Origin: a candidate division WOR-3 bacterium
Lineage (GTDB): Bacteria; Hydrothermota; Tepidihabitantia; Tepidihabitantales; Tepidihabitantaceae
Direction: 5' to 3'
Length of the DNA: 64,000 nucleotides
Assembly: GCA_024653355.1 (NCBI GenBank)
Contig: JANLFQ010000001.1
Coordinates: forward strand, 310,001-374,000
Shown here: piece after piece, positions 30,042 to 36,367 of the stretch
Layout of the letters: the number at the start of each line of letters is the position of its first letter
Numbering within the stretch: the first letter of the stretch is position 1
Position numbers and translations under genes: made by a program
Notes under the pieces: generated by a model
Databases searched by the model: none
The model's input: only the letters and a program-made list of their open reading frames with translations
What the model was told of the DNA's origin: nothing

Positions 30042-32044
30042 CTCGTAATTATGATACGGATTGCCGAATTAACTTCAAACCGAGCAAAGTATACCCCAGG
30101 ACTGACTGTCTTGCCTTTGCGGTCCTTTCCATCCCAGACAAGGGTGGTATTTAAGAGCGGTAAGTCGGTAACCATCCGGCCGCTTTTGTCGTAAATTTTA
30201 AGAGTTTGATTTTGGACTGTTTGATTAACGGTAAATCGCACCGGTAGTTTTGTCGGGTTTTGGTGAATTTTGATGGCCAAAGGCATTGATATTGCAGATG
30301 GATTGGAACTGATGCCCACATTCTTTACATCTTCTATCGCATCAAGGTGAAATTCGCCCCAGGCGGTGACTTTTATGTAACGGACACTGTCCAAGCCAAC
30401 AGCACCGATGTCAAACAGGCTCTGGTTGGTGCGGGCGGTGCCAATATTAATCCAGGGTCCTAACCAACTATTTGCTCCTTGAATAAGGGCGCTGTCAGTG
30501 CCGGCAGAGCGATAAACGATTAGGTCCATTCCTTCTTGATTACGAATCGGTTTCTGCATATCGAGACAGATATACTTGCCATTGTCAAGCCGGAACCCTT
30601 CACCATCGTGAGGCCCAAGCGCCCGAACCGGGTAGGTCCGGTTAAGTGCGGGGTTAACATAGTTGTTGTAGATATGGCGGAAGGCAAAAAGCGGTGCTGA
30701 TGGGTCCGAAGTTAACTGGACATCAACTGTTGTGACCGAGTCGCCGAAATCGGGTACAACAACATCTGTCAGGGTGGTTTCCCGATAGCCGGGCGCAAGA
30801 AATGTTATCTGATAGGTCCCGGGAAGATAAAACCGGTGAAAATCGCCCAGTGCGGGGTCGTTGTAACTGAGCCAGCGCGCCGGACTGACCCAGATTTGGC
30901 AGGGAACCGGTTCATTGGTCTCGGCATCGGTAACAGTACCTCTGATTCCCTGACCGGCGTGATGCATCAGAGCAAACATTGCCGGTTTATTCAGATTGAA
31001 AGTGGGGTCAATTTCAGAAGCGGGCGGGGTTTTGTAGATGTGAACTTCAATGGACCAGCCCATCATTCCATAACCGTAGTCAAAATCTTTGGTAGAACCG
31101 TTTATTGGGTACATCGAGTCCGCACCCTGACCGTAGGTGTAGTGGGTAAAGGCATCGTAACGGGCTGATAAAAATTGTATCAGGGGTAGTTCGGGAATCG
31201 TATTTACGTAAGTTGAGCAGCAACTCCAGGGGTGGGAGATGAAGGTGGTGCCAGCGTGATAGGAGACATAAGTCACCGCAGGATTACGCCAGATGTGCGC
31301 TAATACCGCCCTGTTCTCTGGTTCAGAAAACGGTGTGGCACCTTGACTTACTTCATTGCCCCACATCCAGCCCCAGTTGCGGTTTAAGTCAACGCCATTG
31401 CCGTTGTAGCGGCTTGCAGGGTTGCTGCTGTAGCCATCAGGGTTGTACATTGGTAGAAGGTAAATTTCCCGGTTGTCAACCATTCGGGTTACAATGGTGT
31501 CGGTGCCATAGTTTCGGACAAGGTATTTAAGCAACTCGAACACAATCGCCCAACCAATTTTCTCATCACCGTGGATTGCACCTTCAAAATGTACTACGGG
31601 TTCATCTTCGTTAATTTGGGGGTTATCCGAAATTTTCATCGCGAGGATTAAATTACCGTTGTAACTCAAGCCCAGCGTCTCCAGTTTGCAGATGTTAGGA
31701 TTGTTCTGGGCGATAATTGCCATTGTATCTCGGAATTCTGGGTAGGTTAAATAGCGACCATCGGTTGCAGGGGCGAGAAAATTTTGTTCATAAATTTTGC
31801 TGATGTTTGGAGTGATGATTTCTACTGTATATCCGATATTCCTTATTTTCTTCTGTTCGTCGGGCGTTGCTTCTGCCACAACACCTCGGGCATCAACATA
31901 GTTGACAATTGCGCCAAGTTTTTCGAGCGTGCGTACTTCGTCACGATTGGCACCAACTATGCGCACGAGGTCTCGAGCACTTTCAATGTGGGCAGTTGCT
32001 GTTAATAGAACGGTTAATATTCCGATAATAGTTTTCCATTTCAT
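30038..32044 (-). CDS. Secreted zinc carboxypeptidase (M14) with sorting-like C-terminus
   Basis: A 668-residue exported peptidase. The signal peptide covers about residues 1-22. The M14 zinc ligands are His158 and Glu161 (IHGDEKIG), followed by MYNPDGY, NGVDLNRNWG, a third His in SYHAGTTF and the catalytic Glu in WSIEVHIYK. A carboxypeptidase-regulatory-like domain follows (GIRGTVTDAETNEPVPC). The C-terminal domain carries IYDKSGRMV, VWDGKDRKGK and PGVYFARF with a basic end. A strong Shine-Dalgarno (AAGGAG) and promoter precede it. It is first in the M14-M16-M16 operon and related in layout to the M14 gene at 17.3 kb. Confidence 0.94.
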   Translation of the reverse strand: MKWKTIIGILTVLLTATAHIESARDLVRIVGANRDEVRTLEKLGAIVNYVDARGVVAEATPDEQKKIRNIGYTVEIITPNISKIYEQNFLAPATDGRYLTYPEFRDTMAIIAQNNPNICKLETLGLSYNGNLILAMKISDNPQINEDEPVVHFEGAIHGDEKIGWAIVFELLKYLVRNYGTDTIVTRMVDNREIYLLPMYNPDGYSSNPASRYNGNGVDLNRNWGWMWGNEVSQGATPFSEPENRAVLAHIWRNPAVTYVSYHAGTTFISHPWSCCSTYVNTIPELPLIQFLSARYDAFTHYTYGQGADSMYPINGSTKDFDYGYGMMGWSIEVHIYKTPPASEIDPTFNLNKPAMFALMHHAGQGIRGTVTDAETNEPVPCQIWVSPARWLSYNDPALGDFHRFYLPGTYQITFLAPGYRETTLTDVVVPDFGDSVTTVDVQLTSDPSAPLFAFRHIYNNYVNPALNRTYPVRALGPHDGEGFRLDNGKYICLDMQKPIRNQEGMDLIVYRSAGTDSALIQGANSWLGPWINIGTARTNQSLFDIGAVGLDSVRYIKVTAWGEFHLDAIEDVKNVGISSNPSAISMPLAIKIHQNPTKLPVRFTVNQTVQNQTLKIYDKSGRMVTDLPLLNTTLVWDGKDRKGKTVSPGVYFARFEVNSAIRIIITR

Positions 32045-32074
32045 TTAAACTCCTTTTGGTTACCCAATTAATTA

Positions 32075-32102
32075 AGTATAGTGTGTTAACATTGACTGTC
32101 AA
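32075..32102 (-). promoter_or_regulatory. Promoter of the M14-M16-M16 peptidase operon
   Basis: On the minus strand TTGACA (32097-32102) and TATACT (32075-32080) have a 16-base spacer. The leader is about 23 bases and carries an AAGGAG ribosome site. A second TTGACA lies about 26 bases further upstream. Confidence 0.75.
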
Positions 32103-32818
32103 AACTATTTTCCCGTAATGTCAATATCATGTGACAACCGTAAAGATGTAAAAATAGTATGCAAATTAGCGCAATCATTGCCGTTGACACTGTTTTTCGG
32201 GTATGGGTTTTACGCCTGTCGCAATTTGCTATCATATTGATTGCAAATGACTTAACGACATTATTCCATTTTAAATTAACCGGTCGCATTGTTAAATGTT
32301 GATATAACTGGTTTGTTAAGTTGTTGAATTTTAAAGGGTTGATACGGCAAGATAGATTTTGGCACGGATGCTGTAAATATACATTCCGGTGATTTTAATA
32401 AGATGCGAGAAATGGTTTTGGTGACATTGACAGGGTTTTAGGTGGAATAAGTTTGTCGGTTTTGCTCTTTACAATTGGGAATTTCGGTCCACCGGGCGAC
32501 CTCTTAAATTAAATGAAATTGTCCAAGACGGGTGACTACGGAGTCAAAAGGAAGCGCATTATTCTCTCTGCTCTCTTGCCTGTTGTTAAGAAGTGTACCC
32601 GAAACAATTGTGCTCCATAGTTTACTCGTCTTGAAGATTGGTGGGTTGAGGAAGGAGGGGTACCATTATCCCTTTTGGGAAGGAGGGATAATGAGCGAAG
32701 ATAAGCGGACCCCGGATGGTAGGTTGAAGGAGCGAAGTTAAAAAGAACCTTTGACCGAAGTCGAGACAAGATGATGCTCCTTGACCGTGTCGCGGTTATT
32801 GCTTTGTTTGAGCACATT
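32103..32818. other. Long AT-rich gap upstream of the structured leader
   Basis: About 700 bases with no convincing gene. Short open frames (32532-32741 plus, 32536-32817 minus) have no recognisable product. A perfect 10-base-pair hairpin is formed by CATTATCCCT (32664-32673) and AGGGATAATG (32684-32693). Two TTGACC words at 32751 and 32781 could be -35 boxes; the second has a weak TTTGTT 16 bases on. I looked for tmRNA, RNase P RNA and SRP RNA signatures on both strands and did not find them. Confidence 0.45.
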
Positions 32819-32982
32819 TGGGGTCCGCTGAAAGATTGTCTATCCTGGGGCCGGCATCTTAGCCTCCTTCTTGGGATTTTAAAAGCCCACGCCCAAGTCC
32901 TACCATAAACGGCCCCTTTTTCTGCGCCCGGTGGACCCCATTATTGAGGAGCTGCGGTACACCTGAAGGGTGTTTCTACACC
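32819..32982 (+). promoter_or_regulatory. Candidate structured RNA or mRNA leader (nested stems)
   Basis: Three perfect stems nest inside each other: TGGGGTCC (32819-32826) with GGACCCCA (32933-32940), GGGGCCG (32847-32853) with CGGCCCC (32910-32916), and CTTGGG (32870-32875) with CCCAAG (32892-32897). Two opposed internal loops separate them, giving a rod of about 120 bases. Just after it ACACC (32959-32963), GGTGT (32969-32973) and ACACC (32978-32982) can form two mutually exclusive hairpins. It lies about 110 bases before the lipoprotein start. It could be a small RNA, a regulatory leader or an inverted-repeat remnant; no known family was recognised. Confidence 0.45.
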
Positions 32983-33091
32983 ATTTAATTGGGAGAGAAT
33001 GCCGCCTTTTTTTAATATTCAGGCACTCTGGGACGCTCACAGGGTAGCCGCGGCTCCTTTAAGATTTACCGGGGGAGGAGAAGGGAGAAAG

Positions 33092-35047
33092 ATGTTGAGG
33101 GTAATGGGGTGGAGATTCAAATTTTTAACCATCGTTTTTTTAATTTTACTTGTATTTGGTGGTTCGTGCCTGAAGCCGCCGGCACTGCCTAAATGGGATA
33201 TCAATATACGAATTCCGGTTTATCAGAGAACGGTACGATTGGGCGAAATTCTATCTAACAATGAAAAATTTCAAATTCAGCCCGACTCGTCGTTAGTGGC
33301 CAATCTGGTTCACCAATGGGGACCAGTTGCGGTTGATGGAGCAGTTTCTCTAATTACGGTTGAGAAAAGAGAAAAAATTGCATTGGGGGATTTAGTTTTT
33401 TCCCGTGCGGGAAAAGGCAAGGAGGGAGTTAGTTGTAGCGAAATTTTTGGACCAATCCCTGATACGGGCTTACAACTACGGGTGGAACGATTTAGCAACA
33501 TTTTTGAAAAACATTGCGTGATAGAAAATATCGAATTCGTTGATCTCCATGAGGCGGTAGTAATTACAAAGGTCGAAAATAGAACCCCGTTGGTTTTTGA
33601 TGCGGTTACCATCAGGTTGCTGGGCAATACTGTCAATATTGAGAGTTTAGGTCCTGGTGAAGTTCAAGAAAAGAAAATTCGAGTGGGTGGAATGACGCTG
33701 GTTAATCCGATAGATGTTGAAATTGAAGTGTGTTCGCCGGGCAGTGGAGCAGATACGGTCAGGATTTTGCCGCAGGACAGCGTCTTGGTGAACATTGAGC
33801 TGGATTCACTCCGGATTGGCGGTGGCAGGTTGAAAATCCTTGATTGTAAGTTAGAGAAGAAGATGGAATTGGATATAGCGGCGAAGAATCCGTTGCGCAT
33901 TGATAGCGTAGTCCTTGAACAAGGGCAGTGTGTGTTTACGGTTGGCAATCGGCTACCGGTCTCGATAAATCTCGTCTACGACTTTCCCAAAATTGGGGTT
34001 AGTTCATCCCAGACGATTCAAGCCGGAGAGGGGATGAGTGTCGATTTCAATCTAACAGATGTGGTGATTGACAATTTACGCAAGAGCAGTGGGGTTCTTG
34101 AGCTGCGGGCTCAGGTGAATTTTGATTCGCGGGGGGAGTTTGTCGATGTGACAAAGGATTGCGAACTGGACATCGGTTATGTAATTTCCGACGCAATGCC
34201 CAAGATTCTCGTTGGCATGTTTCGGCAACCGGTGTACATATTTTCCCGTAGCGAAACGATTCCCGAACTGATTCCTTTTGGTGTTCGTGGTGCACGGTTC
34301 GCTTCCGCAGAGTTGGTTTTAGAGGGAGAAAACTATGTTGGTTTTCCAATGGATATTTTTGTCTCTTTGCGAGCAATAAAAAATCAAGGGGTGGTAGCAA
34401 CTATCGAAGATGTAATTGCGGTGTCGCAGCGCCAGGGGAACTTACCGGTTCGTTTTGATTGGAGAGTACCGGTGACATCGTTACTCAACACCGGACCGGA
34501 TTTTATTATCTGTGAATACAATGTCCGGATGAGAGGTTATGGTCGTTATGAAACGGGTCAATCGGTATGCGCCGGTACGATTTTGAATGTGCCATTGAGG
34601 CTGGCGTTGGTTCCGGATACGATAGCGTTGCCCGAAAGGCAGGTGGAACTATCTGATGAAGAGATACAGTCAACACGAAATCACCTCGTCGCCGGTGGTG
34701 CCGGTATCAGGTTGAAAAGCGCCCTGCCGTTTGGGATGAACGGGAAACTGGTATTGCACAATCGGACATCTGTTGTCCCGGATATCCTTGTTGACTCCGT
34801 AACAATCCCGTTTGCGATACCTGCGGGCATTGTTAACAATCAAGGTCGCTGTGTGGCAGAACGGGATACTCTGGTCTCGGTTTCTTTAGACAGTGTTGAA
34901 GTCACCCTGTTTAAAAGTCGTTCTTTAAGTGCCGGCTTGATATTGGAGCTGCCGGCAACCGATACGATTGTTGTCTATACCGGCGACCAGATGAAACTGG
35001 ATGCAGTTATTGAGCTCAAGGTGCGCATTGACAACGATAGCAGATGA
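33092..35047 (+). CDS. Large lipoprotein of unknown function
   Basis: A 651-residue predicted lipoprotein. I start it at ATG 33092, where GGGAG lies just upstream and a normal signal follows: basic start, hydrophobic stretch and lipobox VFGGSC. The longer frame from 32999 would add 31 residues before the signal. The mature part is beta-rich without enzyme motifs and has repeated segments of the type DTVRILPQDSVLVNIELDS, suggesting stacked beta-sandwich domains. It overlaps the next gene, a probable outer-membrane barrel, by ATGA, so the two may form one envelope assembly. I do not recognise the family. Confidence 0.8.
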   Translation: MLRVMGWRFKFLTIVFLILLVFGGSCLKPPALPKWDINIRIPVYQRTVRLGEILSNNEKFQIQPDSSLVANLVHQWGPVAVDGAVSLITVEKREKIALGDLVFSRAGKGKEGVSCSEIFGPIPDTGLQLRVERFSNIFEKHCVIENIEFVDLHEAVVITKVENRTPLVFDAVTIRLLGNTVNIESLGPGEVQEKKIRVGGMTLVNPIDVEIEVCSPGSGADTVRILPQDSVLVNIELDSLRIGGGRLKILDCKLEKKMELDIAAKNPLRIDSVVLEQGQCVFTVGNRLPVSINLVYDFPKIGVSSSQTIQAGEGMSVDFNLTDVVIDNLRKSSGVLELRAQVNFDSRGEFVDVTKDCELDIGYVISDAMPKILVGMFRQPVYIFSRSETIPELIPFGVRGARFASAELVLEGENYVGFPMDIFVSLRAIKNQGVVATIEDVIAVSQRQGNLPVRFDWRVPVTSLLNTGPDFIICEYNVRMRGYGRYETGQSVCAGTILNVPLRLALVPDTIALPERQVELSDEEIQSTRNHLVAGGAGIRLKSALPFGMNGKLVLHNRTSVVPDILVDSVTIPFAIPAGIVNNQGRCVAERDTLVSVSLDSVEVTLFKSRSLSAGLILELPATDTIVVYTGDQMKLDAVIELKVRIDNDSR

Positions 35048-36294: not shown

Positions 36295-36367
36295 GGGGCT
36301 GTAGCTCAGTTGGGAGAGCACCTGCTTTGCAAGCAGGGGGTCGCCCGTTCGAATCGGGTCAGCTCCA
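36295..36367 (+). tRNA. tRNA-Ala (anticodon TGC)
   Basis: The cloverleaf is complete. Acceptor GGGGCTG (36295-36301) pairs with CAGCTCC (36360-36366), including the G3:U70 pair that marks alanine tRNAs. The D-loop has AGCTCAGTTGGGAGAGC. The anticodon stem is CCTGC/GCAGG with loop TTTGCAA and anticodon TGC at 36328-36330. The T-loop TTCGAAT and discriminator A at 36367 are present. The CCA end is not encoded. The gene lies between an outer-membrane protein gene and the convergent acyl-CoA synthetase gene. Confidence 0.97.

Follow-up and report, generated by a model that had tools for sequence, protein, structure and literature searches.

What does the gene-free region at positions 32045-33091 encode in the window, the 64,000-nucleotide stretch of a candidate division WOR-3 genome analysed here? 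A sequence-only reading had described a region of about 1 kb without genes followed by a large lipoprotein gene, and both are in place: the region spans about 1,047 nt, and the gene behind it is a 651-amino-acid ORF with a lipobox-like FGGSC. Inside the region, the same reading had proposed a 164-nt, rod-like structured RNA with a switch-like tail. A DNA search of 61 related genomes found conservation far longer than this 164-nt piece, and a second query, taken from a relative and run against 28 genomes of the order, confirmed the long conserved stretch. The hairpin cluster of the 164-nt piece is part of the 3′ half of an RNA of ~670 bases (668 nt were folded), which measures ~370-800 nt in relatives. 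The conserved structured RNA gene occupies 32360-33059 on the + strand, and 12 of the 147 genomes of the phylum carry a homologue. We consider it reasonably probable that this is a separate gene for a large structured non-coding RNA, one that probably acts in trans and whose transcription unit resembles a small, enhancer-controlled rRNA operon. The features of the locus are the following.

32217-32223, + strand: enhancer-like TGTCGCA, 143 nt before the promoter motif
32282-32288, + strand: GGTCGCA, a degenerate second enhancer copy (near-match to TGTCGCA)
32360-32374, + strand: sigma-54-like −24/−12 element TGGCACGGATGCTGT
32464-32474, + strand: boxA-like antitermination element GCTCTTTACAA
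32486-32498, + strand: 5′ strand of helix P1 (pairing probability 0.80-1.00 in the full-length fold)
32524-32535, + strand: 5′ strand of helix P2 (covariation)
32622-32633, + strand: 3′ strand of helix P2 (covariation)
32638-32664, + strand: purine-rich motif that resembles a ~70-nt hairpin located at another place in the genome
32704-32714, + strand: 5′ strand of helix P3 (covariation)
32819-32829, + strand: 3′ strand of helix P3 (covariation and full-length fold), which is the 5′ arm of the outer stem first noticed here
32847-32916, + strand: P4 core with near-invariant CCUCCUU and AGUCCU, the most conserved block
32925-32937, + strand: 3′ strand of helix P1 (covariation and full-length fold)
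32946-33059, + strand: P5, the 3′ domain; in four relatives, U5-U7 stands at the end of its basal helix
33092-35047, + strand: downstream lipoprotein gene, a neighbour outside the RNA, with no Pfam match

A covariance model of the 3′ half of the RNA, built from an alignment of eight sequences, produced the 12 matches in the phylum, four of which (G017, G024, G019, and G022) lie outside the model. In the last three, which belong to another family, the match is found 35-49 nt before the lipoprotein orthologue; as the model had no knowledge of that gene, this position constitutes independent support. A second model of 12 sequences returned the same 12 of 147 genomes. Occurrence is patchy: of the order's 28 genomes, 12 have the RNA. 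When genome contigs from 84,980 species were scanned for an exact pattern, 12 stretches came up; five are loci of the large RNA, and the other seven were rejected as homologues, having scored at most 12.2 bits or gone unreported by the model. No match to the large RNA was detected in the phage and plasmid records searched, and it was absent from the RNA libraries searched and from the genomes searched outside its own phylum.

Three long-range helices, P1, P2, and P3, emerged from per-genome lists of best helices, without the use of an alignment. P1 encloses P2, P3, and P4, while P5 forms a 3′ domain after P1. With the arms registered by hand, the 13-bp P1 is paired in 98 of 104 cells and has double changes in 8 of 13 columns (eight sequences); the corresponding counts are 89 of 90 cells and 9 of 10 columns for P2 (nine sequences), and 98 of 108 cells and 6 of 9 columns for P3 (12 sequences). 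For each of the three, 5000 whole-arm swaps failed to match the observed pairing even once. In five genomes no helix of the whole sequence is stronger than P2, and in six relatives P2 comprises 14-20 uninterrupted pairs of differing sequence. Family f3 departs from this layout, with P2 missing and P1 not clearly homologous. P4 and much of P5 are too invariant for covariation testing. Because the P4 stem is nearly invariant, its covariation is small, and across the 3′ half (P4 and P5) 8 of 47 predicted pairs are changed on both sides in at least one of eight sequences. The full-length fold gives P1, P2, and P3 pairing probabilities near 1 over most of their length. The full RNA folds with a z-score of −2.86, and folding was better than the shuffle mean in all 12 genomes (z −1.85 to −5.92, 40 shuffles each). 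A protein-coding origin of the conserved block was rejected, given that the helices covary and indels break the frames.

The letters of all three stems of the sequence-only reading are present: the outer stem at 32819-32830/32929-32940 (12 pairs with G-T), the middle at 32847-32852/32911-32916, and the inner, CUUGGG, at 32870-32875/32892-32897. As a real pairing the outer stem has to be given up, with a probability of 0.00 in the full-length fold, where the same bases are used by P1 and P3 (mostly ~1.0). It is built from the 3′ arms of P3 and P1; of the nine sequences tested, two (this genome and G001) have 11-12 pairs of it, G002 has seven, and the remaining six have 3-5. In the full-length fold the inner stem has a probability of ~0.16, and f3 does not conserve it. 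The label rod-like does not fit either, for the RNA is multi-branched and has about four times the length, and the outer stem is a by-product of the P1 and P3 arms. The supposed switch-like tail, ACACC/GGTGT/ACACC near 32960-32982, is there but is genome-specific, being absent from the other aligned sequences. Compensating changes in relatives, which had been named as a check, are many in P1, P2, and P3, while the outer stem was refuted. Taken together, that first interpretation is partly supported, and its core, a structured RNA outside known families, is borne out by homologues, covariation, and the lack of an Rfam match.

The Rfam search, which had likewise been suggested, gave no family for the RNA. 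With 4227 models (release 15) and a score above the curated threshold as the criterion, the only match in the window was a tRNA-Ala at 36295, with none at the RNA locus; a permissive scan of 32040-33200 yielded four weak, chance-level matches (best E 1.7), and scans of nine relatives' loci found tRNA only. The OLE, ROOL, and GOLLD covariance models had no match in the window, in 32040-33200, or at the nine relatives' loci. We take these models to be present in the scanned library, since PMC12286853 states that its profiles for the three came from Rfam. Neither 6S RNA nor SRP RNA matched the locus in the scans of the window and of 32040-33200. RNase P RNA and tmRNA were rejected as identities, as the genome has an ordinary RNase P RNA (RF00010) at C1:950193 (297.5 bits) and a tmRNA (RF00023) at C1:132562 (192.2 bits). 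Literature searches on WOR-3 riboswitches, and on boxA, sigma54, or NusB with non-coding or structured RNA, found no paper on the large RNA.

How might such an RNA be made? All 12 genomes have a single match to a sigma-54-like element (TGGCAY, GG-N10-G) in the 200-250 nt upstream of boxA, at a shuffled frequency of 0.000-0.056 per genome; the shuffle control matters here because the sequences for this count were chosen by anchoring on that element. Within the window alone, the element is within chance (4 matches vs 2.0 expected). GG-N10-G stands at a conserved place with enhancer-like sites upstream, the −12 position reading GT in this genome and GA in f3 rather than the canonical GC. RpoN is encoded in 25 of the 28 genomes of the order. 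TGTCGCA lies upstream in all 11 testable genomes (the contig of the twelfth ends), near −85 to −99 and/or −142 to −154, and the best-shared 7-mer in 200 shuffles reached at most seven genomes; as three of the 11 come from one genus and three from one other family, the count represents fewer than 11 independent lines. A literature search on TGTCGCA as an enhancer motif found no paper.

A pattern scan for a possible regulon returned 25 matches (five of them the large RNA) vs 12 for the reversed pattern, which is suggestive only. At locus L117 (G014), a sigma-54-like promoter and TGTCGCA-type sites precede an RBS, a ~20-residue proline-rich peptide, and a terminator-like hairpin. A similar promoter at L114 (G018) precedes PAS/histidine-kinase-like and response-regulator-like genes (domains assigned by eye), a pair that could serve as sensors for these enhancers. 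At L129 (G003), another apparently non-coding, hairpin-bearing stretch is preceded by a sigma-54-like promoter and three TGTCGCA-type sites. In G012, G005, G003, and G018 (loci L005, L006, L009, and L008), though not in this genus, a further hairpin, GAAGGGAGTGC/GCACTCCCTTC, sits between the promoter and boxA.

A boxA-like element precedes the RNA in all 12 genomes, and GYTCTTTACAA has a single match in the 64-kb window against 0.04 expected. The element of this genome's RNA lacks one base of the usual motif and is like the boxA of its own 16S leader, where GCTCTTTGATAA is followed by a helix strand that, by eye, pairs with the 16S trailer. The distance from boxA to the aligned start of P1 is 11-13 nt (hand-counted) in the eight genomes with P1. 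In Enterobacteriaceae rRNA, according to PMC10250234, the spacing of boxA and boxC is 18-19 nt in 98% of cases, and boxA tethering is proposed to promote the rRNA leader-trailer helix. As in rRNA units, the structured RNA is enclosed by a long-range helix whose 5′ strand begins shortly after boxA; the large RNA is, however, not an rRNA, and its promoter is sigma-54-like whereas that of rRNA is the housekeeping type. boxA is also described outside rRNA, such as at suhB, in a survey that by its own statement excluded non-coding RNAs (PMC5725501). The two cases are alike in having boxA outside rRNA, but at suhB the element sits in the 5′ UTR of an mRNA and here the product is a predicted non-coding RNA.

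The main rival to a separate gene is that the RNA acts in cis, as an attenuator or translational switch in a very long 5′ leader of the lipoprotein-DUF5723 operon; P5 and a U-run would then form a terminator just ahead of the RBS, and upstream binding of a metabolite or protein would decide read-through. It is the strongest of the alternatives, and we still regard it as unlikely. The lipoprotein gene follows the RNA in 10 of the 12 genomes, and because it starts only about 32-109 nt after the RNA there, it is probably co-transcribed. Like riboswitch and attenuator leaders, the RNA has an upstream position and, in some relatives, a terminator-like 3′ end: the last helix is followed by at least five T in the divergent relatives G018, G019, G022, and G024, a U-run after P5 that also speaks for a separate gene. 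In f3, moreover, the U-run is succeeded almost at once by AAGGAGGTG, with which CACCTCCTT near the 5′ end pairs perfectly in three of three cases. Such complementarity of an anti-Shine-Dalgarno-like stretch to a Shine-Dalgarno sequence would be expected anyway. A cis leader would also always accompany its downstream gene, yet the RNA is kept without it in G003, where tRNA-Ala is next, and in G017, where an unrelated ORF is next. Conversely, five f4 genomes and G008 keep the lipoprotein gene without the RNA, other genes or unrelated sequence preceding it. A leader would not usually measure ~370-800 nt and carry boxA and enhancers, and this size, the boxA, and the persistence without the gene set the RNA apart from riboswitch and attenuator leaders. 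On the other side, rimP, identified by Pfam match, is the divergent upstream neighbour in six of the 12 (G005, G012, G017, G024, G019, and G022), and the rimP locus of 11 genomes, checked with filters off, held no RNA. The RNA can thus occur apart from either neighbour, and this speaks for an independent gene rather than a leader; trans action is not thereby proven.

Tight linkage combined with separability could also be explained by a bifunctional transcript, in which the leader of the lipoprotein mRNA would be processed to release the RNA as a trans-acting product, but the terminator in f2 and f3 argues for an end at P5, and we find this improbable. That there is no functional RNA, merely chance hairpins in a drifting intergenic region, would agree with the folding of the 164-nt piece alone, which is no better than that of shuffles (z −0.97; 36 of 200 fold at least as well), but is scarcely credible, since it is already refuted by the compensatory changes in three long-range helices and the RNA was recovered at the syntenic place in another family.

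For a separate gene with a trans-acting product, an enhancer-binding protein bound at the TGTCGCA sites would activate the sigma-54 RNA polymerase to transcribe the RNA. NusB/NusE on boxA would shield the untranslated transcript from Rho and, by analogy with boxA and boxC in rRNA leaders, may hold the 5′ strand of P1 until the 3′ strand emerges ~430 nt later. Made as needed, the folded product would then act in trans, as a particle of RNA or RNP. More tentatively, the near-invariant CCUCCUU of P4 is anti-Shine-Dalgarno-like in its letters and might contact mRNA or the ribosome, and the folding model suggests that it may possibly pair alternatively with upstream or downstream purine runs.

The purine-rich motif resembles the ~70-nt hairpin, which is nearly invariant over eight genomes, three of them without the large RNA. 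Two pieces of this hairpin occur, by eye, in opposite order in the large RNA of G005 and G011. The ~70-nt hairpin itself, located on contig C3 near 125565 in this genome (L040, L054) and at L047-L053, has a G-rich loop, one covarying stem position, and an uncertain orientation; in this genome it lies immediately beyond a clpB-like gene (identified by eye), at that gene's 3′ end. It had no Rfam match above threshold at the five loci scanned. That the two RNAs have a common partner is a lead and not a result. A fuller and distinctly tentative version of the separate-gene reading, which we doubt more than we believe, is an inducible trans-acting RNA particle from an rRNA-like, enhancer-controlled unit, with boxA-bound Nus factors chaperoning the closing of its 430-nt domain; the two-piece module shared with the hairpin would then point to one partner for both RNAs, with one of them perhaps titrating.

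To our knowledge, classes of large bacterial non-coding RNA are few and mostly unexplained. OLE adjoins a membrane-protein gene, and the large RNA lies beside a lipoprotein gene. It resembles OLE, ROOL, and GOLLD as a single-copy structured RNA of several hundred nucleotides with long-range helices; it differs from them in having no Rfam match, in not being found in phages or plasmids, and in its sigma-54-like promoter, enhancer sites, and boxA, none of which is described for the three in the accessible text of PMC12286853. We conclude that it represents a new class of large structured non-coding RNA, in kind like OLE, ROOL, and GOLLD and unrelated to them by the tests available. Its promoter type, putative enhancer sites, and antitermination signal indicate when and how the RNA is made, and the structure model is ready for probing. 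If the separate-gene reading is true, this would be a non-ribosomal, non-coding user of the arrangement of boxA and long-range helix, and the chaperoning of long-range RNA folding by Nus factors would become testable outside the ribosome.
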